Below, one piece after another: positions 4,417-40,839 of a stretch of 64,000 nucleotides of DNA. Location: contig OZ020526.1 of NCBI GenBank assembly GCA_963971425.1, positions 17,203,173 through 17,267,172 of the forward strand. Reading direction: 5' to 3'. Every line of letters begins with the position of its first letter. The first letter of the stretch is position 1. A program made the position numbers and the translations under genes. This stretch comes from Bryoerythrophyllum caledonicum. Taxonomy: Eukaryota; Streptophyta; Bryopsida; Pottiales; Pottiaceae. The notes beneath the pieces were generated by a model. It had not been told where the DNA came from. It was given only the letters and a program-made list of their open reading frames with translations, and did not search any database.

Positions 4417-5154
4417 TCAGCATCCACCTAGAATACAAGCAATCACACCAAGAATCCCATCCTTCACAATACAAAACAAACCAAAATGGGACCCATCACC
4501 AACCTGGCAAACTCGACTGTAACCAACCATCTTCCGAGAACTATCGTACAACAAGTCTGGAGGCGACAACCTGAAAATTCTTTGTACGATATCGTTCCTG
4601 TAAGCCACCTCCGACGGTCCCTTCTCACCAAACACCATGCCATTTGCCTTCCGCAGCGCTCGAACAGCACCACTCCATTTTGCCACGTCGATCCTCGCGT
4701 CATCATCGGCGAGTTGTCTCCACATCGGCATCCAACGTTCCTCGATGGCCTTGTCATCCAGATCCTTCACGGACAACTTGTAGAAAAGTGGGAGCATGTT
4801 CATCCGTGGGTTTTCCGCTTGTCGTGCATCGTGAAACTCAGCAAGCTCTATCATGGGCCACTTCGAACATAAGAACTTCTCCGACAATACCATCACAGCA
4901 ACATCACAATGTCGGGCTGCCTCCTTGATGAGAGGCACGAAATCCTTGCCCTTGAGCAGACTGTGCTGTCTTTGGTCGAAGAATGGGCACATGAACCCAC
5001 GTCTTTCCAGATCTAGACAAAGCTGCTCTGCAAAATCCTTCTGTGCTCCAGAGTGGCTGATGAAAATTTTATGTTTCACCCCGTCAACCTGCAATGAACT
5101 GCAACATGATGTGGAGGAATCAGTGGAAGGAGAGATTGGGATGAGATTGCACAA
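4417..5154 (-). CDS. TIR-domain protein (TIR-only or first exon of a TIR-NLR)
   Basis: TIR domains of plant immune receptors cleave NAD+ and generate signalling nucleotides. The domain runs from about residue 28: HKIFISHSGAQKDFAEQLCLDLERRG (strand A and helix A), then the helix with the likely catalytic glutamate in SEKFLCSKWPMIELAEF, and ends near IVQRIFRLS. The start at 5154 gives a Ser-rich leader, MCNLIPISPSTDSSTS. The C-terminal residues after SRKMVGYS look unlike any domain and may be intronic, because GT dinucleotides suited as donors follow LSPPD and SRKM. No NB-ARC follows on the minus strand before the CACTA terminus at 4369, only 48 bp from the stop. It is therefore either a TIR-only protein or a TIR exon cut from its NLR. 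Confidence 0.8.
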   Translation of the reverse strand: MCNLIPISPSTDSSTSCCSSLQVDGVKHKIFISHSGAQKDFAEQLCLDLERRGFMCPFFDQRQHSLLKGKDFVPLIKEAARHCDVAVMVLSEKFLCSKWPMIELAEFHDARQAENPRMNMLPLFYKLSVKDLDDKAIEERWMPMWRQLADDDARIDVAKWSGAVRALRKANGMVFGEKGPSEVAYRNDIVQRIFRLSPPDLLYDSSRKMVGYSRVCQVGDGSHFGLFCIVKDGILGVIACILGGC

Positions 5155-5284
5155 AGCCCCCTACTTATAAGGAAAAGACGGAAGGTGTGTCATGCGGCGT
5201 GAGTCACTAGCCAACAATGCCGTAGCTGTTGCACACGTCTTCCTCGTCAACGTACGCATGATGTGAGACGTGCAAATTTGACCT

Positions 5285-10060: not shown

Positions 10061-11004
10061 CCCCTAAGGTACCAAGACAGTTTTACACCAAAAACACTTC
10101 AATACTCTTGGATTCTAGTGCATTGAACAAAGAAGGTAACTAAAAATTTTATTTTTAGTTCTGACCGTAGGATCTCAATAAAGGCTTATTAAATAATACA
10201 TGTACAAAATTTCATAAACTTTGACCGCACCGATTGAAAGGTTATAGTGTTTGAAGTCAAGCAAATGGTTCATTTTCTTCCCTGCGTTCAGTGGATCAGC
10301 AGACTTTGACTTCAGTTGGTGTCAAAAAATTTCACTACACAAGGTCTAAATATATTACCATGTTGTTAAGCATGATGTTAGCTCCTTACACACCAATTTT
10401 TAGAGGTAGAGACAGGGTGTAGCATATTCAAAACAAGTGTGCAAGGAGTGGAGGCTCGAAATTTGTTAATTCACACTTTAATTTTTTTTGAACTTAATAT
10501 GTTTTCGATTGATAATCCGAATGGTTAATAAGAAGGTTTACATTACATATTGTTGTGGAAAAAATAAAAAGTGAATAATATGAAGATCTCTAGGTTTTAT
10601 GTGGAATAGAAGAAGTTTTTTTGGTACCTTGCCCGACAATGAGTGACAATGTGTGAAAATGTTTGACTTGGGTTGGTATGCTATTTTTCACTAAAGACAA
10701 GAACTTTTTTTGACAACATGAAGGGAAATAATATTATTTGCGAGTACTGAAAATTTCACTTTCAATAGAGTGTCCTATCAAAAGTTTTTGGAGGTGCCCG
10801 AGGTGCCCGCCCTCCCCATTTAAAATTCAAAACCCTATAACTTTTTCATCAAATGTCCAATTTAGGAAAAAATTGTTTTCCCACAAAGGTCTTGGTAATG
10901 CCTTTTTATGGTAAGAATTTCAAAGATGAATGTTTGAAATTGACAGCATAGAAACCTGACCGAACTTTCAAAAAGCCCATTTTTGACACTTGGTCCTTTA
11001 GGGG
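10061..11004 (+). mobile_element. piggyBac-type non-autonomous element (copy A), 944 bp, inserted into copy B
   Basis: Perfect TTAA flanks lie at 10057-10060 and 11005-11008. The left terminus CCCCTAAGGTACCAAG matches the reverse of the right terminus, CCCCTAAAGGACCAAG. The interior is AT-rich and non-coding and carries family landmarks, including CCTACGGTC/GGACCGTAGGATCTC-type sequence, the run GGTACCTTGCCCGACAATG and a G-rich GGAGGTGCCCGAGGTGCCCG near 10790. It sits at a TTAA 43 bp inside the same-family copy B, so it is the younger of the two. Confidence 0.85.
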
Positions 11005-11489
11005 TTAAACTGCCGTTTCTAGTGCAATTAGTAAAGAAGGAAAAAAACGCTTTTATTTCCAAATTTACCCTTAGGATCTCAAATAATACTTACCAAATAA
11101 CCTATTCACAAAATTTCATTGACATTGACAGCACGGATGGAAAGATTATAGTGTTTGAAGTAGGAAAAACGGTTTATTTTCTTCGGTGCGTTCAGTGGAT
11201 CAACAAACTTTGACTACACTTGGTGTTAAATATTTGCACTACACATGGTCAAAATACATTGCCATTATGTTTAGCTTGCTATTAGTTCCTTGTACACCAA
11301 TTTTTAGAGGTAAAGAAAGGGTGTAGTATATTCAAAAAAATTGTGCAAAGAGTGGAGGTTCAAAATAGGTCAATTCACGTTTTATGTTTTTGTGAACTAA
11401 ATATGTTTTAGAATGTTGATCCAGACGGTAAATAAGAAGGTTTACATCACATCTTGTAGTAGAAAAAATAAAAAGTGAAAAATATGAAG

Positions 11490-11739
11490 AAGAAGAACGC
11501 CGGTACCCTAAGGGGACCGGCGTGAATAAAGTGTCTGTTCGTTCCACTACTGAGACCATGCCCACCGGACAAGGAATTAGTAAGTTGGAACTACTTCCCC
11601 CTCTCGAGGGTAGACACTATGCAACAAGTAGCCAAGGAACCACAAGCCAACCAACTAGCCACAAACTAACCACAAATCAAGCAATTTAGTCAAGAAACCT
11701 CAGAACCAACTAGTCATGAAAATCAAGGCGGGGGAGAAT
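11490..11739 (-). repeat. LINE 3' UTR and tail, with a GC-rich terminal hairpin
   Basis: The terminal 120 bases (reverse of 11490-11610) recur at 17647-17764, 19394-19509 and 26190-26317. The last part folds into a stem, ACGCCGGT paired with ACCGGCGT (11497-11523), with a short loop. In the copy near 26285 the loop is CTTCG. A TTC repeat follows. A conserved structured 3' end is what stringent LINE reverse transcriptases recognise. TTGG-rich degenerate repeats (reverse of 11625-11700, GGTTGGTTTG-like) lie between the stop of ORF2 and this tail. Confidence 0.75.
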
Positions 11740-12215
11740 TTAAGGGGGGTCCTGTGTATCGGGGAGGGCTTGATTGTTTTGGATTTTGCGTTTATGTAGG
11801 AGAATGGACATGGCATATTGGGTAGCAATGGTGTTAATGTTTTTAAAGGAGGTTTTAATTGTTTCAATGGGTATTTTGAAGGTATCTTCCAGAGATTTCA
11901 TAGATGGGATAAAGGTGGTGGCACGAGCGCCGGATGTGATTACAATAAGGGGGTCGACTTTCCATCCGAGTGCGATGATGTCGTCAATAAGGGGTTGGTA
12001 TTTATCTATTTTATTTTGGATTGTTTCCGGAGATAATCTATCGTTGCAATATGTGAATTCAATGAATTGAATGGTGTATTCTTGGTTGATGTTATCGGGT
12101 GGTGGGTCATTATATGGTAAACCTTTAACGCAAAGGATGTCCGGTTTTAACCGAGCGTTGCATTGACATCTTAGGGTCATACATGAGCATGGGAGTAGCC
12201 AAGGGGGAGGGTATT
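11740..12215 (-). pseudogene. LINE ORF2: C-terminal restriction-like endonuclease domain
   Basis: The second endonuclease of the element reads CQCNARLKPDIL, then about 20 residues later IQFIEFTYCNDRL, then KIDKYQPLIDDI and DPLIVITSGARATTF. The pattern R-x-KPD, then hydrophobic strand with acidic residue, then K-x3-Y-x2-L, is that of the PD-(D/E)xK nuclease of R2-, CRE- and Dualen-type elements. It ends at QALPDTQDPP with the ORF2 stop at 11740. Cys-rich residues just upstream (CSCMTLRCQC) fit the zinc-binding part that precedes such nucleases. The frame shifts relative to the upstream CCHC segment near 12215. A truncated copy of the same domain is at 25639-26030. Confidence 0.7.
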
Positions 12216-12302
12216 TTCTTGTGGGTGATTATTAAAAGTGCCGGCGTTCATTAATATGAAACATCTCAATTTATTATAGGAGGTGATTAGTTTTCGGACT
12301 TC

Positions 12303-12659
12303 TCATACCGCTTTATTATGTCTTTTAACAATTAGAGAGTGTATGTGGTGGTTTTGGCATTTGAGTAGAACATGGAGCCATGTGTCGGGGTCCGTTGAGG
12401 GGCATATGGGGCATGTTATGGATGGGAATCTTTCTATGCCAAAGAAGAGTTGTTTGCGAGCGTTTCCCATATATTGACCAGTACGGAATTTGATGAGGCA
12501 TGTTATTTCTGAGTCTGAGATGATGGGGTTTTTCCAAAAGTTTGTAGAGAGTTCATTGTCTATGTTGTTATTGTTAGTCCATTTTTCTATGTTAGGAATA
12601 TTTTCTCTGATTGTGTCAAGGTTGTTGTAGAGGTCTAGTTTTTTGAGATATTTGCCCAA
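12303..12659 (-). pseudogene. LINE ORF2: CCHC-like zinc motif between RNase H and the restriction-like nuclease
   Basis: The segment reads FRTGQYMGNARKQLFFG and then CPICPSTDPDTWLHVLLKCQ followed by NHHIHSLIVKRHN. C-x2-C-x(9)-H-x4-C followed by basic residues is the zinc motif that sits before the restriction-like nuclease in R2-type and Dualen-type elements. Its presence supports reading 11740-12215 as that nuclease. A stop follows HNKAV at 12303, and the coding sense continues with EVRKLITSYNKLRCFILMNAGTF, which looks like the same protein. Confidence 0.65.
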
Positions 12660-12719
12660 AAATCTAATTGGGCCTTTGTCGGGGGTGTCTTCTTTGGAAG
12701 GCCAATCTTCTTTTTGAAA

Positions 12720-13358
12720 TTAGTATGGGGTGGCATGGGCATGTTTGTGTGGGTCTTTGGCATTTTTGTGTGTTTTTTCTCGGCCTTCTTTTGCTAATTT
12801 GTCTGCTTGTTCGTTGCCATCAATGTTGGCATGGGCTCTCACTTTGTGGAGGGTTGTAATTTGTGTACGGTTTTGTAACATTTGGACCATTGACATTAGT
12901 ATGGTTCGGTCAGGGTGGCTGTTGTGCAGGGTAGGGTGCGTTATTTGAGTGTTTAGTAGGTAAAGTGCATTTATACAGTCGGTGAATATATGTGCGGGTT
13001 CATTGGTGTATTTTGTTGTGATGATTTGTAGTGTTTTGTGAATGGCCATGAGTTCTGCTCTAAGGATATTTTGTAGTCCGTGGAGTCTTTTGGCTAGTTT
13101 AATTTCCTTAGTAAAATTATATATGCCATAGCCAGCTTTTTCTCTGCGTCAGGATCCTGGGCTAATTTGTTCTGGTGGTTTAAAGGAGCCATCGATGTAA
13201 TAACTATGTGCGGGGTTAAATTTTGGTGTGGTGTGAGTTGGGTAGTCAGGGAGAGGAGGAGGTGTGACGGAGTAGTTTAGTGTGTTGTTGACATATTTTA
13301 GTTTTGACCATTTTTTACTTTTGTTTAGGGGGGTTTGTATGGGTGTTGGTGGGGCCAA
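12720..13358 (-). pseudogene. LINE ORF2: RNase H domain
   Basis: This degrades the RNA of the RNA/DNA hybrid during reverse transcription. All four acidic residues of the DEDD active site are visible: the first in HSYYIDGSF, the glutamate in NILRAELMAIHK, the third in HIFTDCINAL and the last in GNEQADKLAKEG, with a conserved histidine-type context in VRAHANIDGN. One in-frame stop lies after ISPGS near 13149. RNase H domains occur in plant L1 elements as well as in RandI/Dualen, so this domain alone does not place the family. Confidence 0.85.
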
Positions 13359-13370
13359 TTTTGTGTATAT

Positions 13371-13907
13371 TCAGTGTATGTTTAAATTGTTTGTTATGGA
13401 GGTAAGTTCGGCAAGTTGTTCTAGGGAACCTAGGGTTTGATTTTGATGATGGACGCATAGTATTTGTAATGTTGATGGTTTGATTTGGGGTTTATTTAGT
13501 TCGGGTGGGATAGTAGGTTCTTCATATGGTATTGTGTCTGCCTCAAATATTGTAATGATATGGGAATCTGGAAATTGGTTTAGATGTTGGTTGTTGTTTT
13601 GGTACCAATTGTTGTTCGGTGTGATGATTATTGTATTTGTGTTATTTGGATCGTGTTTGGCGGCAAGTCGAGCCCAATGTATTGCTTGTTCTATATCTTT
13701 TTCGTTGTGGGGGTGAGCTATACCTTTACCGATCCATTTATAGTCAAAGGCCTTTCCTAGGGATCCAGATACTTTATCTCTTTCGCAAGGTGAGTAGAAT
13801 TTTTTTAGTTTGGTAGAACATGTGACCGGGGAAGAAAAGTATGCTTGTTCAATGTTAAAGGATGTGATTAATGAGTCTAAGATGGAGATTGTAATTGTAT
13901 ATTGCAT
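13371..13907 (-). pseudogene. LINE ORF2: unassigned domain between RT and RNase H
   Basis: About 178 residues lie between the RT thumb and the RNase H domain. The visible core is AFDYKWIGKGIAHPHNEKD, IEQAIHWARLAAKHDPNNTN, TIIITPNNNWYQNNNQHLNQ and SHIITIFEADTIPYEEP, then LQILCVHHQN. The alternation of predicted helix (WARLAAKH), strand (TIIITP) and strand (HIITIFEAD) looks like a folded alpha/beta unit, not a disordered linker. It faintly recalls methyltransferase-like domains found in some other retroelements, but no catalytic motif is seen, so I make no functional call. Confidence 0.5.
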
Positions 13908-14109
13908 ATTTTTGAGGGGGTCTGTTTTTGGTATTCCGTATTTATATCTTTGGTATAGCCAGATTATTTCGGTTTCAAAGGGTTGGGTCGTTGGTTCGAT
14001 GTTTGTAGGAGTTTGTAGTTTTATATTGTATTGATTCCATAACCATTGGAGTCTAGTGATGGGGATGGTGTGTAAATGTCGGCCATTTTCTTCGTATAGA
14101 TGTGCTTGA

Positions 14110-15360
14110 TTGTTATTTATTTGGATTGTGTTTGAGGATGTAAGGATATCATTTTCGGGGTTGCATACTGTTGTGTGGATGTTTAAGAGAGGGATAATTA
14201 TGGGTGGTGTTACGGATCTTGAGTCTGAGTATTGTTCTTCGGGGTGGTGTGCTAGGATGATATCCGTTATGTTTTGTTTTGAATTTTTTGGTAGTATTGT
14301 TTTAGTTTTTTTGTGTTATGTGTGGAGGTGTTGGTGTCATGTTGTGGAAATAGGTCTCTTTGGGGAAGCCATTTATTGTATGTGTTATCATTGTGTTGCC
14401 ATTGGCATAAATATTTTGTGTATGTGTTTTTTATATTATTTGTGTCTGTATGTTGGATATGTTTATGGTTTATGATATTTTTAATGGGATATGTAGTAGG
14501 GCTTTTAGGAATGTATGTTGGGGGGCGGGGGTGGTATGTATGTGGAGGGTTACGGAGATAGGTTGTTGTGGGAATATTTCTTGGGATGGATGTTATTGTT
14601 GAGGGTGATGAATGGATCTTTAAGTATATGAGAGTATGGGTGTATGTTGCAAGGAGTATGACATGTAGTGGGGCATGTTGGGTGGCAAAATAGTTGTTTA
14701 GCAACATTTAGGGCACTTTTTATTAGTTTGGATGGGGTGAAGTGGTGGGTTTTGAAATCCTCATTGTTCATGATGTGTGTGCCGTTAGGTAAAGTAATTT
14801 GATTTAGTTCAAAAATATTTTTTGAGAGGAGTTTTTGTAGGAGCTTTTGGGAGAGTTGGGCATTGAGTGTATTATGATTTGGTGTTTCTTGGCGCCATAG
14901 TATTTCTAGTATTGTAGGATTAATGAGGAAGTTTGGGAGCGTACTTTTAAGGTGGGCTTTAGCTATATGTTTTAATAAGAAGAATGTTCTTGTTATTGGT
15001 GACCTTATGCAGTCACTTTTTTTAATTCTTGGTATGTTTTCGGCGCCACCATATTGGGCAAGGACATAGTGAATTAATCCATTATAAATTTTTCCAAGTC
15101 TTCCTTTATCGTTTAGAGCATCTTGCAATTGTTCGCCTATACATCGGAGGTATGCGTTTTTGAAGGAGAAAGCTTCAAGTCCAAAAAAATTATGTGGTAG
15201 TTGGGTTATTGCGTTTGACATACATTTTGGTAATCCACATATGGTTTTTTGTATGGCCATTATTTTTTTATCAAGTTTTTTGATAGCTGGCATAGAGTAT
15301 GGCACACTGTAGAAACTGTATGCCACACCTGGGCGTAGTACGGTATCAATCATTTTTATT
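14110..15360 (-). pseudogene. LINE ORF2: region after the RT palm (thumb and connection)
   Basis: The frame continues from the RT core as MKQKIKMIDTVLRPGVAYSFYSVPYSMPAIKKLDKKIMAIQKTICGLPKCMSN (15380-15220). That is the usual LINE thumb motif, in which a conserved stretch ends in 'K.I..LP' before a helical region. The downstream part down to 14550 is open and helical, then turns Thr/Asn-rich (TYTHTLIYLKIHSSPSTITS, HTDTNNIKNTYTKY) with frame changes near 14550 and 14270. I see no catalytic site. Confidence 0.6.
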
Positions 15361-15367
15361 TTTTGTT

Positions 15368-16990
15368 TCATGTTAGTTCTTTGCATTGTTTGATGAGTTT
15401 CGTCGTTGTGGTGTGGATTTGGATTTTCCATTTTAGTGAGGGAACAAGGTTTGTGCCTAAGTATATGTATGGTTCATTTTGGTGTAGTATGGGGATCGGT
15501 TGATTGCGGTAATTGATGTTCGAGGCTTGCATTAGGGCTTTGAAAGTGGTAGGGTTCAATTTGGATTTGTTTAGGCATCCGGTAGCGGCACATTTTGGGA
15601 CACCTACGTCCATACCGGCCCATTTACAATATCTATCAATTTTGTTTAGTTGTATTTGTATATGTTTGATTTTGTTAGTTATGACGGCAAGGTCATCTGC
15701 ATATGCGGCAGAGTTTATTGTGACTTGTGATGTACCAAACGTATATCCGTTGTTGCCTCTTTCTAGCCATCTAAGTAGTGGTTCTATGAATATAATGAAT
15801 AGATATGGGCTAAGGGTGTCCCCTTGTATAGTTCCTCTTTGTATGGGTATAGATTTTGTTTTCCCAAAGTGTTCACCAATATAGTAGGTGGATGATTGGG
15901 AGTAGATGTTTCCTACAAGTGTAGTTGCATCTTTTGGGTAGCCAAGGTCCATCATTATTGTTAGTAGTCGCGGATGGTCTATTGAGCCAAAGGCGTTTTT
16001 AAAGTCAACGTATAATATGTATATATCTTGGTTAGTGAATTTTGCGTCTTCTAGTGCGGCTATTATGGTTTGTATTTGTCGGGCGGTACTTCTCTCTGCT
16101 CTAAATCCTTGATTATCCTGTAAGATTTTGAATTTTTCACCGTATGAGGATAGTATGGAGGTAAGTGTACTAGTGAAGAGTTTGTATATTGTGTTAGCTA
16201 GTGCAATTGGCCTATGGTTGGGTAGTATAGGTGGGTCACCTTTTTTGTATAGTAAAATTGTTGCACTTGATTTCCATGAGGTTGGTTTTTGTTTTTGTTT
16301 ATAGCAGTGGGAGAAGAATAAGAATAGTAATTTATGAAACCTTGGCGGCATGTTTTTGAGTATTGAATTTTGTATGCGGTCTGGGCCTGGGGCTTTGTTG
16401 TTACCAAGATTTTGAAGGCATGTGTCGTATGTGGTTCTATTAAGGTATTGATGTAGTGGAATTTCTGGTTCGCCTCTTTTGTCCAGGATGTATCCATCTA
16501 GGTCATGCCATGGATATTGGCGTACTGCACATTTACATTTGTTTTGATGTTGTGGTTGGTAATTACATGTTGGTACTATTGGTCTATTGGTTTTTGTTTG
16601 TTGGTTGAATATTTCATTTGCAATGTCTTCGGGGTTAGTTAGAATATTATTAAATTGGTCTGTGATACAATTTAGTGGTAGGGATTCTAGATTCTTAAAT
16701 ACTTTTCTGTTAATTTTCTTAGGGCTAATTTCATAGATGTGTCTATATTTTTAGATGTATTTTTTAATGTTATCTTTGGTGTGTTTTGAGGTTATTTTTC
16801 TGGCTTGTATGTTGGCATTTTTTGCAATTAGTGCGATCTCATTTATCCATGTATTGTGGGGCAGATCCGGGGGCGGTGGGGTAGGAATTTGGGTATGTTG
16901 TATAGTTAGTAGTTCATTGCATATAGGGTGGTTGCGCCATTGAGAATTATTTTTTACAAGTCTTATAGTTTTTTGTATAACATGGAATGT
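15368..16990 (-). pseudogene. LINE ORF2: reverse transcriptase domain
   Basis: This carries out target-primed reverse transcription. Motifs in order are SSATILLYKKGDPPILPNHR and PIALANTIYKLFTS, then FRAERSTARQIQTI, ILYVDFKNAFGSIDH (motif A aspartate), IQRGTIQGDTLSPYLF (motif B), AYADDLAVI (catalytic YADD) and KCAATGCLNKSK, followed by PYIYLGTNL. The frame from 16351 to 15368 is open. Further N-terminal RT sequence (NKAPGPDRIQNS-type, read as the reverse of 16360-16400) continues in another frame up to about 17000. The motif spelling is that of APE-type non-LTR elements, not of LTR elements. Confidence 0.9.
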
Positions 16991-17279
16991 AGTGAGATGT
17001 TGTTTCCAAGTTTTAGAGAGTTTTCGTGGTAGATATCCTCCTTGCTGAGATGTTCTGTTTGTTAACTAGGGTGTTGGATGGGCTCTACAAGTTTGTTCTA
17101 GTGTGTTGGAGATTTCTTTGATGAGTGTATCTAGGGTTTCACATGCTTCTTGCCATTGTACTTGTGATAGTTGATTGTTATTTTCAAGAGTATTTATGAG
17201 GGAGTCTATTAGCATGGATTGTTCTTCAAAGAATTTTGTGTTGAATTTTTCTAAGTTGCCTTTTGGAATGGGGTTGAGT

Positions 17280-18245
17280 ATGCGTATAGTGTCATTGTTT
17301 AGGATTGTGGGTATTCTTATTAATTAAGGTGTTATTTGGAATGTGTAAATGTATAGGTGTGTGGTCCGAGTTGAGAATAGCATCTTTGTTTGTTGTAGAG
17401 GTATATTGTGTATTGTTGTTGGTATTTATATAAAATCCATCTATTAGACTCCAATCGCTATAATTGTAACCGCCTTGTCTAGAGAATTGTGTATCGGTTT
17501 TTATGTAAGTGAGGTTTAAGTTTTATGTGAAGTGACGCCATTGGTAGTCTACAGTTTGGGGAGTGGTACTATGGTTTCCGTTTGGCATCCGATTAATGCT
17601 ATATCTCTATTAAAGTCTCCGCATAGTATATATGTGTGATTGGGGTAGGGAAGTAGTTCCAGCTCACTAATTCCTTGTCCTCTGGGCATGGTCTTAGTAG
17701 TGGAACGAACAGACACTTTATTCACGCCGGCCTCTTTCGGAGACCTGCGTTCTTCTTCTTCTTCTGTGTGATTGGGGTTGTTATTTATTTGAGATGTGAT
17801 AGTGTTTTGTATGTCATTAATGAATCTAGTATCTTCGGGGTGAGATGGCATATACATGTGGAGGACTAGCCACGGTTGTAGTGGATAATTAGTGATTTTG
17901 ATTATTTGGAGATAAGGGGATATGTGCATTGGGGTGGGGATTTTTTTGATGTTGCCCGGGAAAGAATATTTTTTATGTATTAGTGCAAGGAGACCACCGC
18001 GTCCCGGTGTATATGGTCTCCGTTGTTGAATACATCTTGTAAGTGCATGTGTATTGTTGAAAATGAGTTTATAGTCTTGAAATAAGTTTTGTATGTATTT
18101 TGTGGATTGTGTGGTGGATAGTTTTGTTTCTTGTATAACTATAATGGCTGGCGGTGTGTTTGTATGTGTGACCAAATTTTGTAAGCTGGGGAGGGCGGTG
18201 TTTAGAGAGGAGGCATTCCATGTGATTATATATGTATTTTCTTGG
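17280..18245 (-). pseudogene. LINE ORF2: APE-type endonuclease domain, carrying a 132-bp in-frame insertion
   Basis: The apurinic-type endonuclease nicks the target. It starts YIITWNASSLNTALPSLQNL (18240-18185), followed by IVIQETKLS with the catalytic glutamate, GRGGLLALIHKK, PLQPWLVLHMYMPSH, YILCGDFNRD (near 17600) and, in another frame, NYSDWSLIDGF and ILNSDHTPIHLH with the catalytic SDH histidine near 17360. Between NNNPNHT and a second PNHTYILCGDFN lies a short LINE-tail insertion. Its length plus the duplicated target is exactly 132 bases, so the frame stays open across it. Confidence 0.85.
17647..17764 (+). mobile_element. 118-bp 5'-truncated LINE tail inserted into the LINE's own endonuclease region
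   Basis: A perfect 14-bp duplication, TGTGTGATTGGGGT, flanks it (17633-17646 and 17765-17778). The insert is the last ~118 bases of the LINE 3' end in plus orientation (GGAAGTAGTTCCAGCTCACT to TTCTTCTTC), opposite to the host LINE. It is closer to the LINE tail at 11490-11610 than to the SINE tail at 19394-19509, so it is probably a severely truncated LINE copy. It encodes EEEEERRSPKEAGVNKVS-like sequence when read in the host frame. Confidence 0.85.
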
Positions 18246-18873
18246 TTTGATCTAATGTTTTGATTTTGAGGAGGGATGTAGGGAAGAGGTGGGGGTGGGT
18301 GGGTGTATTCTGGTATAGGGTCTAGACATTTTAGTGATTCATTTATGAGGTTGTTAGGGAGGTAAGGGAATTTTAGTTTTATTGTATCATTTGAGGGTGG
18401 TATGTCTTGACTATGTAAGAAGTCGTATAATCTTTTATGTATTGAATTCTCATGGGTTAAAATACTTTGGTTTTCTTCAAGGAATTTTGTATAGAGCTGT
18501 GGGGTATGAATGTGTCTTTCGGGTGGGTTTTGTAAGTTTGATAGGGTTTATAGGAGTGTGTCGGTCCATGATGTTATAGTCGGGTTTTGTGGGTTTAAAA
18601 GGCGATTGCATTCGTCTATGTTTGGATGGATAGTAATCACCAAGGCGTATAAGATGTATGGCGATGGATGTATATTTTGTTGTTGTATGTATTGGGCTAT
18701 GTTTGTGTGTGTGATGTTGTGTGTTAGGTGTAGTGTGTGTGTGGTTTTTAACAGGGGTGCAAATGTTTGGGCGATGTGTCTATATTCCGGTTGTAGTTTG
18801 ATAGTATTTGGTATAAAGTATAGTTTGGCATTTTTCTTATGTGGCGTAGGGTGTCTTTTTAGTATATTAGGCA

Positions 18874-18957
18874 TGGGTCCCGGGTTGGTTTCTATGTCAC
18901 CACCTAGAATTAGTAGTAGTTTATAGTGTTTAGGTTTTTGTGTTATTATTATTTTTT
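18874..18957 (-). other. 2A (ribosome-skipping) peptide motif in LINE ORF2
   Basis: The minus strand reads KPKHYKLLLILGGDIETNPGP followed at once by MPNILKRHPTP. D-I/V-E-x-N-P-G-P with a preceding hydrophobic helix is the 2A consensus of picornaviruses, also reported in several APE-type LINEs. It would release the N-terminal region of ORF2 from the nuclease/RT polyprotein at the G-P junction. The frame is open from 18957 to 18548. A stop lies just upstream (18958-18960), and the N-terminal coding sense sits in the next frame, so this copy has a break there. Confidence 0.8.
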
Positions 18958-18960
18958 AGG

Positions 18961-20465
18961 ATACTTATTTTTTGTGTGTATGTTAGTGTTAAATCTCGGT
19001 ATTGTGTGGTTTTATTTATCTTTTCGTATTTGGTTTTGTTTTGATTTTCTTCTAGGGGTGTTTTATAGTAGTGTGGGTTGTTGATGTGTTTTTTGGGAAG
19101 GTTGTGTAGTTTAGTGAATATATTGGATTTTGGGTTAGTCCATTGAGGGTCTATTGGTTTGTATATCTTTTGTAAGGCACCACGGCCTTGGTGTAGTGGT
19201 TTGAGTCATGGCACACCAGTGAGGTGGTTGTGAGTTCAAATCCCCATGCCGGCGTGGGACCTACCACCATAGTCCACCCAACTATGGTGGGGGTCTTGAG
19301 ACCTCGTTGTATGGGTACCCAAAAAGCCCTTGGGGGGGATGACATGTTGGTTGTCTTTAAGGCACTTAGTGTAGAAAAGTGTTTACCTTCGAAAGGAGGA
19401 AGTAGCTCTAGATTCACTATCCTTTGTCCGGTGGCCATCGGATTAGTGTATAGAATGAACAAACACTATATTCACGCCGGTCTCTTCGGGGGCCAGAGTT
19501 CTTCTTCTTTATATCTTTTGTGTATTTTGGTTTTTTTCCGTATATGTGCTTATGTGTGTAATTTGGTGTATGTGTTTGTGTGTGTTTTTATATGTAGTTG
19601 TGTTAGTATATATGTTGAGATTTATGCTAGTGTTTGTTATGATGTTTGTATTAGTGTGTATTTTGGTATCTATACTGGTGTTTATACTTGTATTTGTATT
19701 AGTATAACGGTCGGTATTTTGGTATTTTATTTTGTTCGTTTTTGGTTGTATATTATTATTATTATTATTTTAATTTTTAATTTTTATGTAGGTGTGTACG
19801 TATATGTTCTTATGATGGTGTGTAGTTGTTTTTATGTATGTGTGTAGTTGTATATGTGTCTTTGTATTTGGTTTTACATTAACATTTATACATATGTTTG
19901 CGGTGGTATGATCCTTATTTGTTTAAATATTTATTTTTGTATCCGTATTAGTATTCCAACCGATATTTGTGTAGGTGTTCGTGCTAGTATTTTTACCATT
20001 ATTTGTGTTAGTATTTGTATTATTTTTCGTGCCAGTATTTGTATTAGTATGCGTGTAGACTACAATATTTGTACCATCATCCGTATAGTATTTTGGACTA
20101 TATGTTATATAGTGTAGTATTATCTTGAATTCTTTGTAGGATTTTAGGAAAATGTATAATACAAGTTTATTTTGAATATGTATAACTTTTGTATAGTTTC
20201 TTGTGTAGAATGTATTTGGGTTTGTGTATGTATTGGTAAGTATGTTTGTACACCTTTGTATGTATAAGTATATAGGTTTGTATTTAGTTTTGCAAGAAAT
20301 ACAGTGGGTGTAGGTTTTGTGTATAAAGTAGTCTAATTTGCCATACTTATCACATACTATGATGAAAATACTAGTTACTTTGTAGTCTTTGATCTCTACA
20401 TGTTTGACGGTTGTCTTCCAAGCTTGGTTTGCCAATTGAGCTTGTGATGGCTTGCATTGTTGCAT
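18961..20465 (-). pseudogene. LINE ORF2: N-terminal region, Asn/Thr/Tyr-rich
   Basis: A frame starting MQQCKPSQAQLANQAWKTTV at 20465 overlaps the end of ORF1 by about 95 bases. It reads VEIKDYKVTSIFIIVCDKYGKLDYFIHKTYTHCISCKTKYK and then turns into low-complexity NTNTNTNT and TYTN repeats down to 19923. After several frame changes and the SINE, a further stretch (LQKIYKPIDPQWTNPKSNIF to KNNNNTKT) leads into the 2A motif. The order suggests that ORF2 began near 20465 with a region released by 2A. Dualen of Chlamydomonas has a protease upstream of its nuclease, but no protease motif is recognisable here. Confidence 0.45.
19174..19509 (+). mobile_element. tRNA-derived SINE, 336 bp, sharing the LINE 3' tail
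   Basis: The 12-bp duplication TATATCTTTTGT flanks it (19162-19173 and 19510-19521). An RNA polymerase III A box, TGGTGTAGTGG (19189-19199), and a B box, GTTCAAATC (19234-19242), stand 35 bp apart in tRNA-like sequence. A unique body follows, and the last ~115 bases match the LINE 3' end (AGGAAGTAGCTCTAGATTCA, the ATTCACGCCGG hairpin arm and a TTC repeat). This is the usual build of a SINE that borrows a LINE's reverse transcriptase through a common tail. It lies in the N-terminal part of LINE ORF2, in opposite orientation. Confidence 0.88.
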
Positions 20466-21963
20466 ATGCGGCTCCCATGGATTCTTGAATACTTAGCATT
20501 TGGACTCTTAGTTCTTCATTCTTTGCATCCACATACTCCTTCACTTCCAACCTCATCTTCTTGTTGCTTTCTTCCACAATTTCCACTATATCCTTCTTTG
20601 TCAAAGAGGGAGGTGTTTCTTTCATCCTGTATGTGGCCACCGTGTTGACCATGGCGGAGTTGATGTCGTCGAAGCCAAAGAGTTTGATTTGTTCTTGTGA
20701 GGGCGGCTCCTCTCCTTCCAAGCTCCTACGATGTGGTGCAAAGTCCACATAATTCCCTTCAATGGTGTATGTTTTCCCCACAAACTCACGGTAGACAATG
20801 GGGTTAGCACAATGTACGTTTACACTACCATTGTGTCTAGTTCCAATCACTTTGTGAAACCAAGTCTCTTTAATGTTGTTTGCACCTATAATTTTATGGA
20901 TTATGTTGGTAGTGTCAATGACACTCATACGGAGAGGTAGGGGAGAGAGGGTCAAGGTTAGAGCGTCTTTCTTAGCTTTGGAGGTATGCGTGGTTCGACC
21001 TCCGGAGATGTGCTTGGCATGAAGTACTTCATGTTGGGTTGTGATTTGGTGGAGGTTGATCTTTTTGGCTTGCTCCGGGGTCGTAGCAATGATGAACGCG
21101 TGTGAGTCCTCTTTGAGCTTGTGTACTCCCGTGACTTCGATCTCTTGTCCTCTTGTGAAGCTATTGTGTAGAATGTCCTTGAAGAATGCTTGTGCTGAAA
21201 TTCCTACAACGGAGAGGTTATAACTTACAATGTGATGGAAACTCTTGCAAACCTTGCCTATGGTATTATGGCCATCAATTTTGAGTATAAAGGGCCTAAT
21301 ACCTTTGAGCATCATAAGACCGTCAATTTCTGGTTTTAATAAATGCAATTTAATGATACCCGCCCATACTCCCTTCTTTCCACCTTTTTTAATACTAAGG
21401 CATTGTATAGAAATTGGATCAATGAGGTCCTCACCAAGTTCAATTTTCAAATATTCAAGTCTTTTAACAACCATGCTTCTAACTTCATCATGCATCATGG
21501 GGGAGGGAGGAGGTTCAAAATAAATGGCAACTTGGAAATCTAGTGCCAAACCTGAGGCATTATTGACAACAATGTCACGTAGAACCTCGGTTATGTTGAA
21601 GTATTGGCCGTCCACGCCGTTTCTTGTACTCGGATATAGTTGTTGGGGGATCCTTGGGAAGGCAACTTTGGAACTGCTTGCTTCCTCTGCCTCCTCCTTC
21701 TTGAGACCCCTGACCATCAAGTCTTGGGCTATCTCCTTTCTGGGGAGCTCCTCCATGTCCTCCTCTTGTGCGAGAGACTCCATTACCGCAAAACCAAACC
21801 AAAAGTTAAAGCCCATGTTCAAGGGTTCGAGTGTGAAGGACTTACCTCTTCCTTCTGGGGTGTTCTTGTATTTTTTGAAGCTGCTGGTCGCTTCCTCTGG
21901 TTTTCTTGCAAGCTTCTCCTTCATGATTGTGGTGGAGGTTGCTGCTGGGGACTCTACTTCCAT
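20371..21963 (-). CDS. LINE ORF1 protein, 530 residues, intact frame
   Basis: This is the presumed RNA-binding ORF1 product of the LINE. It starts MEVESPAATSTTIMKEKLAR and ends RDQRLQSN. The N-terminal ~100 residues are acidic and charged, and the middle has alternating strand/helix character (LALDFQVAIYFEPPP, AGIIKLHLLKPEIDG, GSVNVHCANPIVYREFVGK). The C-terminal part, LTKKDIVEIVEESNKKMRLEVKEYVDAKNEELRVQ, should form a coiled coil. There is no CCHC knuckle and I recognise no named domain. Base composition is less biased than in ORF2. The frame is fully open while ORF2 is broken, which fits a recent insertion or constraint on ORF1. Confidence 0.7.
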   Translation of the reverse strand: MEVESPAATSTTIMKEKLARKPEEATSSFKKYKNTPEGRGKSFTLEPLNMGFNFWFGFAVMESLAQEEDMEELPRKEIAQDLMVRGLKKEEAEEASSSKVAFPRIPQQLYPSTRNGVDGQYFNITEVLRDIVVNNASGLALDFQVAIYFEPPPSPMMHDEVRSMVVKRLEYLKIELGEDLIDPISIQCLSIKKGGKKGVWAGIIKLHLLKPEIDGLMMLKGIRPFILKIDGHNTIGKVCKSFHHIVSYNLSVVGISAQAFFKDILHNSFTRGQEIEVTGVHKLKEDSHAFIIATTPEQAKKINLHQITTQHEVLHAKHISGGRTTHTSKAKKDALTLTLSPLPLRMSVIDTTNIIHKIIGANNIKETWFHKVIGTRHNGSVNVHCANPIVYREFVGKTYTIEGNYVDFAPHRRSLEGEEPPSQEQIKLFGFDDINSAMVNTVATYRMKETPPSLTKKDIVEIVEESNKKMRLEVKEYVDAKNEELRVQMLSIQESMGAAYATMQAITSSIGKPSLEDNRQTCRDQRLQSN

Positions 21964-24229
21964 GTCTTACTCAAAGAATAAGTTTCTTTTGGGGTCCCCA
22001 TTGGACATTTTTGAAAAGGAGGAGGTGTTTTGATAGGAGGGACTATTAAGGAGGTTGCTACTGGTAATGTAGGGGGTTGCTGTGGATTCAGTGGGGTCAC
22101 TAAGGAAGGTGAGAAGGTCGCTGTTGGGGGGGAGGGGGGTCGCTACTGGTTTAGGGAGGTCGCTAAAAGTGTGGGGGGATCTCTTTGGGCTTGTGGGAGG
22201 TCGCTGTAGGCTAGTGGGAGGTCACTGTGGGCTTGTGGGAGGTCGTTGTGGGCTTGTGGGAGGGTCGTTACTAGTTTGAATGGGGATGTTGGGTCGCTAT
22301 GGTTCCTTGGTCGGGTTCTGGAGAGCGGGGAGGTGGGGTTTCGTGAGGCTGGGAGCTGGGGAGTTGAGGATGGGATCTGGTGAGTTGGGAGAGGAAGCTG
22401 GGGAGTTGGGGATGGACTCTGAATCAGGGGAGGAGCAAAGAGGCTGCGAGGGAGGGGAGTTGCAGGGAAACTGAGGGGGAGGGGAGGGGAGGAAAGAGGG
22501 GAGGTGAGGGTCCGGGGTGGGGTGGAGGTGGAGAGAGGATTGGGAGGGGAGAGTGGGGCGCAGCTCTGTGTGGGTAGGGGTAGATCAGGAGCAAGGGGGA
22601 GTGGGGTTCGCCTTGAGGTGGGGAGGGGGGATTCGGGGAGATGGGAGGGGGAGGTCTGTTGTAGGAGTCTCGGGTTCTCCGCCGACGAGTTTGTCTCCAG
22701 GGTCCTGTCGAGTGGTCGCTGAGTCGGTGGGGGAGAGCGCTGCAGAAGTCTCGGGTTCTCCGCCGACGAGCTTGTCTCGAGGGTCCTCTCGAGTGATCGC
22801 TGAGTCGGTTTGGGAGAGCGCTGGGTCCGCGGGTGAGAGCGCAAGATCCACCTCCGAGGAAGGTCGCGGAGGTCGCGGCGTCCACTCTACAGCGAGTCCT
22901 CCTTTGCTGGAACTTTGGTGAGTCTCCATGGTTCCTACTTCGTTTCTTCTGTGTGCGTGTCTTCTGTGATCTTGTGTGTTCTTGGTCTTCAATCTTCGTG
23001 TTCGTCCTTCTTGCGTCTGTCTCTGTCTGTGTGCTTCGTGTGCGTGGTGTCTTCGTTTGCAGCTGCGTTTCCTTCACGTTCTGGGATGTATAGGGGGTGT
23101 GGGAGGTTGTGGTAGTTCTGGGAGGGAGGGAATCTATGGAAAGAGAGGAAGGTCGTAGAGGAGAGAGGTTGTGTTGGTTTCTATAGAAAAGTTGGCAGCG
23201 CTTCCGCGTGGGGAGGGTAGATCTGGGCCGTGGGGTGTGGAGGAAGGTATACCAGTGTAATGTGGATCTAATTCTTGCGGTGGTGTGTCTGTCTAGTGAT
23301 GTGTTTGGAGGAGGGGAGGGGCATCCTAGGTTTTGTTTGAGTGGGGGAGAGGTAGAGGTAGGGGTTTGTAAGCTGAAGATAACTTTACTGTTACAACAAT
23401 AAAAGAGTGGGCTGGTGAGTAACTTACCTAGATCCGATAGAGCTGACTTTCTGAGTTGCTTGTGCAGATCTGATGTTGTGCTCGCTTGGGGCTCGGCCAG
23501 ATTCTTGGAAGATGCGCTCCACAACGTTCTGGGAGCTGCTGGTCCTTTGTTTTTGCAGTGGGCAGCTCTGCTACTGCTGCAGCTGGTCCATTTAATAAAA
23601 CACACTATTGTGTGTACAATTCTACATATTATGTTAGCACAATCTAATGTTACTAGCAAGTATTTGCAAGAGATGGAAGGGTGATATATTTTGTTAACAA
23701 GCTCTAATGTAAATAACAAACAGTTGCAAGAGATGGGAGGGTGAGGGGTAGCCTGTGATGGAGAGTTGAAGCTACGCTGCAGCAGTATCCGGTGATGTCC
23801 TTGTGCGATCTTGACGTTATGAGTTCCTAGGTTGGGGAAGTGGGGCCTTGATGGGGAGGTTTGCAGATCTAGTCCCAGTACTCCAGATCTGGTGTGGATC
23901 GTTGTCTATGGGAACTAAGTGTCTACAGATTTGGCACCAACACAAAGAACCCCCGCTTCAGAACAAACTTTGCACAGATCTGCAACTACTTAAGGCCTCT
24001 TCAAACTCTCCTCCCACAGATCTGGTGTTTGAGCCTTCCAACACATCAACTCTGCATCCCAAATCTCACCTTACTACCCTGATCTGCACACTACGAGGGC
24101 TCACAATAGGGCCAGCCAACTCCTATTGCACGAGGTTTGCAGTTCACAGGCTAAGTCTCCACCTCCCCTCACCAAGAAATACGGAGCTCACTCACAGGAC
24201 ATTCCTAATTTTTTCCGCCACCATTAACC
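21964..24229 (-). other. LINE 5' leader, C-rich with internal tandem repeats
   Basis: From ORF1 to the upstream target duplication the sense strand is strongly C- over G-biased between about 22100 and 22900, giving Pro/Ser-rich open frames (PLPTHQIPSSTPQLP-like) that I take as by-products. Tandem units of about 24 bases (plus strand GTGGGAGGTCGCTGTAGGCT type) lie at 22190-22265. Two units of about 67 bases (GTCTCGGGTTCTCCGCCGAC) lie at 22658-22805. A ~65-base duplication (CAAGAGATGGGAGGGTGA) lies at 23640-23745. Such repeats are common in LINE promoters. A second-element insertion in 23400-24229 cannot be excluded. Confidence 0.5.
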
Positions 24230-24643
24230 AAAAACATGAAGATCTATAAGTTTGATGAGGAAAAGAAGAAGTTTTTTGGTACCTTGCCCGAAATGTGTGA
24301 AAATGTTTCACTTGGGTTAAAATGGATTTTTAAAACCAAAGACAATAAAAAAAATTGCATTTTCAAAGAAGGTAATATTCTTATTATGTATGAAAAATCT
24401 CAATGTCAATAGAAACTTCTAGCAAAATTTTGGAGTTGCCCGGAGGCCCCATTTTTTACTTTGAGTGGTACTAACTTTCAAACCACAAATCCAAAAAAAT
24501 TATTAAAAATTACCTCCAAAACGTTCGTACCAGGGACGATCTAGTATAAAAGTTTAAAAAACAAATATTTTTTTTCCAAATTTTAGGTACGTGCCCAAAC
24601 TATATAAATCCCAACCAAGGAGATTTGGGCCTTTAGAGGTTAA

Positions 24644-27982: not shown

Positions 27983-29720
27983 TCAAAAGTGATTATCCCA
28001 ATAGCAGGGACTATTGCACATAAAAATGTGACCACAACCAGGACACATGTGATTGGTCCGTTTTCGACAAAATCTACACACTTTACGCATATTCCCCATG
28101 TTTTTGCTCCCATGCACGGTAGTTGTTTTTGACTTTACTCTCGAATAGCCGGTTTTTCTGCCTTTCCGCTTGGTAGATAACTCCTTTGCAAGTTGCAAAT
28201 GGAAATTAAAATGAGATATTCGTTCTAGTCTCATTTTAAAACTTACATCTTTGTGAATTATCCATGCATTCACTATAAGCATATCTAATAGGAAAAAAAA
28301 TAGCCTATGCCACCACTTGTGACCTTTTTTCAAACAAGAATAGTATCCCCTCAACTGATCAGCCACAACCACACCTCTCATATTCCTCGTGTATTGTAGA
28401 TGCATCGGACCTGTAGAATTTTTTTTCTTTTCTCCTCCAATCCTTCTGTACACATATAAATTTTCCCCACTTTGTGCAATTGGTTCCGCATGTGTTGATA
28501 ACAATAAAACAAGGTTTTTATCTTTCCATACCATACAACAGATTTCCCTACATTCATGTATCCTGTAATCCACCCAACTAATTTCTTTGTTCTTTGTAAT
28601 GCCATTTGCAGACATGGATTTTGGCAAATATTTCCTGTCCGATCTACATGTGCCAGTTGCCATGATGCCATTCTCCAAAAGCTCCATAAATAATGGCACA
28701 GATGTAAAAAAGTTGTCAGTTGTTACAATATGGCCTCTTCCTACTAAATCATACAACACATCAATCACCACGTTTTTGCCTTGAAACCCTTCACCTTTCC
28801 TTCACTTCACATCATATTGTACATCACCTCCTCTGCTTTAGCTCTCACATACTTCTATTTGAGTGATAGGTGCAACATTAGAAGAAATACCACCTTTTCC
28901 AATATATACTTGGAAGCTCCAAACGTATTTGGAAATTGAGTCTGAAACCTCCCATACTTTCGATTCAAACCAAACTGGTTTTTTAGGCATGTAAACTCGA
29001 ATCGGTGAGTATTTTTCCTGGAATCTGACCATTGTCTCATCAACCGTAACTTGCTGATTAGGATTCCACATTTCTTTACACCAATCCCTAACTTCATCCA
29101 ACATCCACCGTACTTTGAGAAGCTTGTTATAAGTTGGGCTCTTGCGGTTTGATAAGGTTGGTGCGGCATTTGCTACGTGTAAACACCTAGTGATAGATTC
29201 AAATCTTTCCCTAGTCATTATTTGAGATATGACAGGGCAATGCAAAAGTGGCTCATCCCTAGACCAATAAAGTCTTTTAGAAGGTAGAATTTTTAGTCCT
29301 ATGTATAAGCAGATTGATAAATAAGCTTGAAACTCTTCAATGCTTAAAGGAACCCAAAATAATCCCCCTCTTGTTTTTTGCAACTTGTCATCTATATTAT
29401 ATAACTTCATATGCATACCGATTAGTCTCAGCTACAATTTGCCTTTGTAACCTTTGAGACGAATTTTTTTCAAATATCCCCATAGGTGATGGAAGTCGTC
29501 CATATGGGTGCACACATCCTGGTTTGGGCCCAGTGAACGGCAATGGAGGATTTTTATAAGATTGTGTGTCTTTATTCCATGTTGATGTCCCATATTTTAC
29601 ATCCATATCATTCAATCTTTTCCCCTTTCTTTTGCGACTCTTCTCTTGATCTACACTAGAGTGTGTTTCTTTGCCTTGCGTTTCCTTTGCTTCTCTTTTG
29701 TTGCCCAGAAAGTCTTCCAT
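27983..29720 (-). pseudogene. piggyBac transposase (DDE_Tnp_1_7), broken
   Basis: This cuts and pastes DNA at TTAA. From MEDFLGNKREAKETQ at 29720 a charged N-terminus leads to the DDE_Tnp_1_7 core. The parts seen are YLSICLYIGLKILPSKRLYW and then VTVDETMVRFQEKYSP with the first aspartate (about 29030), RGHIVTTDNFFTSVPLF with the second (about 28720), and MRGVVVADQLRGYYS with the third, followed by HKWWHRLFFFLLDMLIVNAW. A cysteine-rich end, CRFCRKRTNHMCPGCGHIFMC, is the family's C-terminal zinc finger. Frames change near 29405 and again between 28840 and 28770. It is the likely source enzyme for the TTAA-flanked elements nearby. Its own ends were not identified. Confidence 0.85.
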
Positions 29721-31638: not shown

Positions 31639-32841
31639 TTAGCGTCCAAAGGTGTCACGAATTTGGTAGTGCTTCTCTTCATCTTGGATGTTGACCAACC
31701 CTCTTGCAAACCAATCAAACGATAAGGGTTTGTCCTGTTTTCCGTGTCCTCCGTGCTCTACGGACGCACTTGTAGACTCTAAGAGGTATTCCTGACTGAA
31801 CTCTGGATTTAATTCTTCATCCTCGATAATCATGTTGTGCAAAATTACACAACATGTCCATATGCTCTTCATTGTAGCCTTGTCCCATAATCGTGATGGG
31901 TTCTTAATGATTCCCATCGTGCTTGCAATACTCCAAAGGCTCGCTCAACATCCTTTCTTGCGGCCTCTTGTTGCTTTGCGTACCACTGCCTCTTTTCCCC
32001 TTCAGGATCATTTATGGTCTTTTGGAACATTGCCCAATATGGATAGATGTCATATGCTAGAAGGTAGCATGCGTTGTACTCATGTCCATTGATTATGAAT
32101 CTTGCATTTAGACCTTTCCCGCGCACATAATTGGTCATCAAAGGGCTTCTGTCTACAACATTGATGTCGATGTTTGACCCCGGCATTCCAATAAACACAT
32201 ACCAAAACCAAAGATTCCTAAAGGTGATTGCTTCCATAACTACCGATCTTGTTCCATCTTTGTTTTGGTACTGTCTGTGCCAACTAGTAGGACAATTCTT
32301 CCAAATCCAGTGTCTGCAATCAATAGAGCCGAACATTTCTGGAAAGCCCAGGAGCTCATTAAGTCACAATTGGTGCAGTGTGTCTACAGCCGTTGGATGT
32401 CTCAAGTATTATGCTCCAAAAATCTCGACTACGGCTACAACAATCCTCTTGAAGCACTCTGTGGTTGTTGTCTCAGCAATGCACACGTACTCATCAATAG
32501 AACCATAACTGAGGATGCGTAATGCGGCAGTTATTTTTTGAATAGAAGATAACCCTAGCCGCCCCACAACATCCTCTTTCTGCATGAAGTATAAATCATG
32601 ATTCACCACTGCGTCATGAATTTCTGCGAAACAAGGGCTTTTGCATGCAAAAGCGACACCAAAAAATATCAGGGTTGTGAACCATACTCTTTGCAAAGTA
32701 GTCGTTCCAAATTTGATTGTGCCTAAGTGCAAAGTTTTTGTCGATGTTAGGAGCTTTACCTCGCTTAGAACCACCATGCTCTCTCTCAAGGATATGTCTA
32801 CGTTCCTCTTCATATCCTTTCTTTAGTTCTTCATGCATCAT
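31639..32841 (-). pseudogene. Harbinger-type transposase (Pong-like, plant_tran family), broken
   Basis: It reads from MMHEELKKGYEEERRHILERE at 32841 through KNFALRHNQIWNDYF, then NHDLYFMQKEDVVGRLGLSS and ECFKRIVVAVVEIFG in another frame. The catalytic core is FGSIDCRHWIWKNCPTSW (first aspartate), ACYLLAYDIYPYWAMF (second) and KDVERAFGVLQARW (glutamate), followed by TCCVILHNMIIEDE and a C-terminus ending FGR. This is the PF04827-type transposase of the Harbinger superfamily. At least four breaks (frame changes near 32650, 32400 and 31900, and a stop between) make it inactive. It is a different subfamily from the copy at 809-2114, and no partner Myb-like gene was found. Confidence 0.8.

Positions 32842-33485: not shown

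Positions 33486-40839
<7,354 letters not shown>

Follow-up and report, generated by a model that had tools for sequence, protein, structure and literature searches.

A probable Dualen/RandI-group LINE with two nucleases and a PCIF1/CAPAM-like domain in a plant genome

The stretch of DNA analysed here, a window of 64,000 nucleotides, encodes a SAC9 gene on its plus strand (33870-39544; Syja_N, WW and SAC9_GBDL_2nd, PF24789 with 8e-23). On the minus strand an ORF with a TIR domain (4420-5160) and remnants of piggyBac-like (DDE_Tnp_1_7) and Plant_tran transposases (27986-28801 and 31872-32363) could be identified. Due to the SAC9, TIR and Plant_tran matches the host is regarded as a plant. A sequence-only reading, made by a model without database searches, had named a land plant; its plant part is retained, and the narrower assignment is likely from the occurrence of TIR and SAC9. 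YABBY matches were absent both from this genome and from 14 control genomes and are therefore uninformative on the host, and a search with an unassigned ORF of the window had no result. The minus strand also carries a LINE copy (11486..24229), with its 5' end at 24229 and its 3' end, which bears a (TTC)n tail, at 11486. As already noticed in that reading it exceeds 12 kb; of its 12.7 kb, about 450 bp are due to two insertions that arrived later (17647-17763 and about 19174-19511). Its reading frames are no longer intact.

The copy is flanked by a target-site duplication, AAAAATATGAAGA on the 3' side (11478..11490, of which 5 bases also belong to the (GAA)n tail) and AAAAACATGAAGA on the 5' side (24230..24242), which agree in 12 of 13 bases. 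A duplication of 12 bp had been proposed; the duplication is present, but an exact 12-mer is absent, and the longest exact word common to both flanks in a script search comprises 9 bases inside the GAA repeat. For comparison 20 copies were taken from the same genome in stretches of 9.8 kb. One of these, L009 (C15:17151400-17161200), is 99.95% identical to positions 10501-20246, lies about 62 kb away and, over the part compared, contains the same inserts; because of this identity and these inserts it is a segmental duplication or an assembly duplicate of the window locus and not a second insertion, and it is left out wherever 19 other copies are counted. The blast matches of 15 of these 19 stop no more than 2 bases from 11486, those of L019, L020 and L022 continue for another 4-9 bases within the GAA repeat, and that of L012 ends early, at 11837. 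The 5' end is common to one close copy, L010 with its continuation L029, which matches up to 24208 at 93% identity and has its own clean 11-bp duplication TTGCTACGACA; on these grounds the 5' end was placed near 24229. The 5' region (21967..24229), 93% identical in L029, is partly GC-rich (0.54 at 22001-24000). A DNA search with the RT core in the same genome (437 Mb, 894 contigs) gave 2833 first-look candidates, and all 40 matches scored were 92-100% identical.

Both insertions lie antisense to the LINE, on the plus strand. The first (17647..17763) is a short copy of a 3' tail, from a truncated SINE or LINE, which interrupts the APE region and is bordered by the 12-bp duplication GTGTGATTGGGG; it is missing from the 19 other copies and shared with L009 from the duplicated locus. 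The second (about 19174..19511) is a tRNA-type SINE with the 11-bp duplication TATATCTTTTG, which is missing from L010, the one other copy with a match across the site. The B box of the SINE is assigned to 19234; scans for tRNA genes and Rfam families returned nothing in the window. Inverted-repeat pairs and blast show that the SINE and the short copy have in common the 3' tail region of the LINE (11486..11626). For Chlamydomonas RandI, passages of PMC3747384 describe SINE partners that have the 3' tail in common with it, as well as simple repeats at the 3' end.

ORF1 (20371..21966, minus strand) encodes 531 aa without any Pfam match, and no match was found among the 45 proteins of the first RT search and P0001. 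Counterparts of its C-terminal part, 36-98% identical, occur at 11 other loci (10 copies). Further downstream a 2A-like motif was read from the sequence, YKLLLILGGDIETNPGP (18875..18925, minus strand), which is also found in L028, L024 and L036 and is followed by about 210 residues before the APE. Within the element LLLILGGDIETNPGP fits the motif D[V/I]ExNPGP, which passages of PMC4981915 give for 2A-bearing non-LTR retrotransposons; in contrast to those, the motif of the window element precedes a dual-nuclease ORF2. Seven of the ten tabulated copies contain it (L026 with one change), while the pattern used detected none in L010, L013 and L022. Among 166 proteins, many of which are RT fragments without the 2A region, it occurs in P0001 and, as DVERNPGP, in P0003, and P0018 has the deviating GVEKNPGP. 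In L024 and L027 the frame of the 2A motif, followed upstream, stays open until it reaches the end of ORF1, to which it stands in a -1 relation; in L012, L018, L020, L021 and L026 it does not. The window copy has an open frame that overlaps the ORF1 end in a +1 relation, and frameshifting is not claimed.

All motifs named in the sequence-only reading could be located, and the element runs on the minus strand, as do all of the following domains. The APE endonuclease (17352..18226), split by the insertion, comprises ITWNASSLN (18200-18226), QETK (18122-18133), CGDFN (17609-17623) and SDH (within 17352-17378); its match to PF03372 (Exo_endo_phos) is barely at the Pfam cut-off in the window with 2.6e-5 and reaches 8.9e-7 in L028. 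The reverse transcriptase (15368..16750; PF00078, RVT_1, 8.2e-27, and RT tree) contains YADD at 15692-15703. For the RNase H (12720..13202; PF00075 2.1e-12), whose frame is broken in the window copy, the characteristic residues are within 13182-13202, 13038-13061, 12975-12989 and 12792-12818. It is followed, before the restriction-like endonuclease (RLE), by a CCHC knuckle (12357..12413, the end coordinate reckoned from the sequence) with CPICP at 12399-12413; in the family alignment C, C and H are invariant and the remaining C is nearly so. The RLE itself (11740..12228) has its KPD within 12130-12147 and its E within 12037-12063.

The assignment of the RLE is based on a family profile and on a fold match to R2, by both of which the proposed nuclease at 11740-12215 proves to be part of an R2-type nuclease domain. 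Pfam gave nothing relevant for the RLE region alone. Single-sequence PDB searches of the RLE piece and of the PCIF1 piece described below revealed no significant match (PCIF1 itself at 0.35), and therefore family profiles were needed. When ORF2 was compared with PDB, all five matches with E 0.01 or less were R2 proteins, R2 at 5e-30. The similarity to R2 includes the fold of the RLE with the CCHC and the RHN motif; in contrast to R2 the element has an APE, so that the RLE is not its sole endonuclease, and its sites are dispersed. R2 elements are not known to contain an APE, an RNase H or a PCIF1 domain.

Of the 20 copies taken for comparison, 11 have this nuclease domain without interruption, KPD included. 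APE and RLE belong to one element, as had been proposed, and in both L028 and L024 a single open frame encodes the two. The frame of L028 (P0001) runs through 2851 codons without a break, and all four Pfam families (RVT_1, RNase_H, Exo_endo_phos, PCIF1_WW) exceed their cut-offs in it; the frame of L024 comprises 2244 codons, which begin ahead of the APE and reach the RLE end, and another open frame lies upstream. The order of ORF2 is 2A, APE, RT, PCIF1-like domain, RNase H, CCHC and RLE, in one uninterrupted frame in sister copies. The domains listed in the sequence-only reading are thus all present, but the PCIF1-like domain, the 2A motif, ORF1, the SINE partner and a young subfamily were not part of it.

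That subfamily was recognized by a search of the same genome with PF12237, in which all 150 matches scored, of 2614 candidates, exceed the Pfam cut-off and 33 of the 150 share an open frame of 3087 codons with equal score. One of them, L036, comprises 2A, YADD, AHPH and KPD in this frame. The flanking sequences of 20 of these 33 copies were examined (L036-L056, L077-L096). These young copies have target duplications of 11-13 bp, in 17 of the 20 (L040 has 9 bp, L055 7 bp and L056 none), together with a (TTC)n 3' tail. On the element-sense strand the sites of insertion contain little C, and when 18 of the duplications were aligned, 17 began with T.

LINE sequence was found on both flanks of 13 of the 20 young copies, compared with none of 20 random stretches (E 1e-4, unfiltered; Fisher 1e-5), the control being 20 pieces of 400 bp from 12 contigs searched with the same settings. 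At E 1e-5 the number is 12 of 20 (10 antisense, 2 sense; p 0.039), and with a filter in addition 9 of 20 (8 and 1; p 0.039), the random stretches again giving 0 of 20 each. Since both flanks so often are LINE, insertion of young copies into older LINE copies is likely. At E 1e-4 the match is restricted to the 3' side in L055 and L040 (in L040 263 bases away) and to the 5' side in L042, and the 3' match starts 43, 140 and 74 bases off the junction in L038, L053 and L037, respectively. The excess is confined to the young set, because among the older copies a LINE is found in the 3' flank of only 4 of 19 (2 sense, 2 antisense). The 13 nested sites are antisense in 11 cases and sense in 2 (binomial p 0.022), a modest bias which could reflect the loss of direct-repeat nests. 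Nested insertion into own copies is also reported, in passages of PMC8226300, for Zepp and ZeppL of green algae, which are L1-type and centromere-clustered, whereas the copies of the present family are spread over many contigs. Two minor observations are that the flanks of L039 and L040, 10.9 kb apart, are almost the same, so that the two may represent one event, and that one random piece, L060, resembles ORF1 by eye, below the threshold.

What attracts the young copies is a separate matter. It is rather probable that they cluster in LINEs because of a preference for heterochromatin or for T/G-rich strand composition, and not because LINE DNA as such is recognized. The C-poor sites fit such a preference, and so do the A/C-rich sense strand of the element and the four sites which have no LINE flank at E 1e-4 (L039, L045, L048, L052). 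Against composition, the flanks of L037 and L042 are A/C-rich (T+G 0.16-0.33) and those of L048 and L052 balanced (0.44-0.53).

Between RT and RNase H the element encodes a PCIF1/CAPAM-like domain with a methyltransferase fold (13575..14015, minus strand), which was identified by Pfam, profile and fold. The PCIF1_WW match of the window copy is 4.3e-9, with 36.6 bits against a cut-off of 31.1, and the fold match spans the methyltransferase part of CAPAM. The domain shares with PCIF1/CAPAM the stretches 'F-A/S-S-P' and 'FGS/FGA'; different from PCIF1/CAPAM, it lacks the catalytic motif NPPF and is fused within a LINE polyprotein. It is present in 30 of 45 proteins compared, and in none of these 30 rows could NPPF be found. 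At its position P0019 has SPPF, P0006 and P0030 have NPP with another fourth letter, eight rows have NPEY, and the window element has HPHN (inside 13701-13724), a type whose AHPH is kept even in copies at 58-61% identity. Because NPPF is absent throughout, the most likely role of the domain is to bind the RNA of the element, probably close to the 5' cap, and not to methylate it. An active cap-adenosine (m6Am-type) methyltransferase with an altered motif, marking the element RNA as the host marks its own, appears unlikely to us; the fold, the clade-wide retention of the domain, and an Asn (10) or His (12) at the position of the catalytic Asn in 22 of the 30 rows, with Pro following this position in 28 of the 30, would agree with such an activity, but the sequences found in place of NPPF do not.

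The 45 proteins are P0001 and 44 relatives obtained by an RT-region search of long proteins, in which scoring was limited to the 7998 candidates with most words in common; when an RT piece of 460 residues was used as a further query, 578 proteins were obtained. In an RT tree of 51 rows, calculated by a quick search without bootstrap and containing no named Dualen sequence, 43 rows including the window group in one clade (SH-aLRT 99). This clade includes P0036, an element from Pleodorina starrii with Josephin, APE and RT, and many proteins with APE, RT, RNase H and RLE. The window lineage comprises eight rows (SH-aLRT 100) and is adjoined by P0002 and P0004 (92); P0037-P0042 and P0045 are on long branches and their placement is unsure. 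The RT thus stands apart from three plant L1-like rows, and the Tanacetum and Citrus rows are separate from its clade. It is highly improbable that the element is an ordinary plant L1-type LINE with an incidental RNase H, whose C-terminal 'nuclease' is a chance motif: an APE is common to L1, and a plant L1 with RNase H is mentioned in an excerpt of PMC4640811, but the RT lies outside the clade of the Tanacetum and Citrus rows, and R2 is matched both by the RLE, in profile and in fold, and by ORF2 in PDB.

The Dualen/RandI group is described in the same excerpt of PMC4640811 by the occurrence of APE and RLE together in one element. Both nucleases and an RNase H are found in the window element, and together with the RT clade they support the membership that had been deduced from domain order. 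Neither of the two outcomes which the sequence-only reading had named as refuting it was observed. The window element is therefore very probably a dead member of a family of Dualen/RandI-group non-LTR retrotransposons that has recently been active in a plant. It resembles that group also in its tail-sharing SINE partner, and differs from it in the plant host, in a (TTC)n instead of an (ATT)n or (CTATTT)n tail, in the 2A motif before the APE and in the lack of a detected cysteine protease. Dualen/RandI elements are restricted to green algae according to a passage of PMC4438587, and are placed in Chlamydomonas relatives in PMC8226300 and in cryptophytes in PMC12747079, the latter two likewise in passages. 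We found no report of them in land plants among the open-licence papers searched, nor of a PCIF1-like domain in LINEs, which does not prove absence from print in either case.

Iterated profiles detected the RT in all 45 proteins, the APE in 31, the PCIF1-like domain in 30, the RNase H in 29 and the RLE in 28. Wherever RT and RNase H both occur, the PCIF1-like domain, if present, is between them. The 15 proteins without it are eight remote rows (P0038-P0045) and seven clade members (P0007, P0012, P0014, P0017, P0027, P0035, P0036), whose ORFs, as read from the coordinates, end upstream of its position. That the domain is a nested insertion or a captured host exon of the window genome, foreign to the element family, might be suspected from its unusual position, but is practically incompatible with its presence in 30 of 45 proteins, including rows only 31-42% identical in the RT region, and in all 150 scored matches of the genome itself.

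The segment between RT and PCIF1-like domain (14270..14510, approximate, minus strand) is a lineage-specific linker found in 2 of the 45 proteins. A chromodomain was considered here and rejected, since PF00385 gives 0.0097 in the window and 2.4 in the intact L028, or 16.3 and 8.6 bits against a cut-off of 25.1. The structural model of the linker, when compared with the three-strand sheet and helix of a chromodomain, is mostly helical with low pLDDT; the alignment is shallow, for which reason the model is weak evidence either way.

From these features the following mechanism can be proposed. The element RNA would be capped and translated, and the 2A sequence would let the ribosome release the upstream product before APE and RT are synthesized. 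One or both nucleases may then cut an A/C-rich target strand, on which the RT would prime from the UUC tail, after which RNase H would remove the RNA. The PCIF1-derived domain would hold the element RNA, and the same LINE proteins would presumably mobilize the tail-sharing tRNA-type SINE. New copies would land mostly within older ones and more often antisense. Whether a captured mRNA-cap methyltransferase module serves Dualen-type LINEs, as a whole ancient group, to recognize or mark the 5' end of their own RNA, coupled in the plant lineage to 2A-controlled translation and to preferential landing in older copies of themselves, is an idea which we offer only tentatively and hold to be rather doubtful. 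LINEs with two nucleases bear on the question how nucleases were exchanged in the history of LINEs, and since the present plant genome contains dozens of open copies that are almost identical, it would be a natural system for asking which of the two cuts. The PCIF1-derived domain, which among the proteins compared is clade-wide, ties retrotransposons to cap modification and offers, for a part of these proteins so far unassigned, a concrete candidate function that can be tested.

Some minor features of the family may be added. The region between ORF1 and 2A (19550-20370 and its equivalents) is an A/C- and AT-rich linker of simple sequence, which in some copies (L024, L036) can be read through for hundreds of codons. 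In L028 and L036 the main 2A is preceded by another, degenerate stretch resembling it: DIENNLGP in L028 (within 1-1462), where it comes with part of a second pre-APE region, and DINTRPNT in L036 (before frame residue 742).

The element of the founding Dualen paper reportedly had a cysteine protease. Pfam detects none in P0001. Among the relatives, Pfam assigns Josephin domains to P0017 and P0036, a weak OTU match to P0003 and PF02902 to P0038; in P0010, P0020 and P0028 cysteine proteases were recognized by eye only. Since the relatives carry different cysteine proteases, repeated swapping of these domains among Dualen-type elements is suggested.
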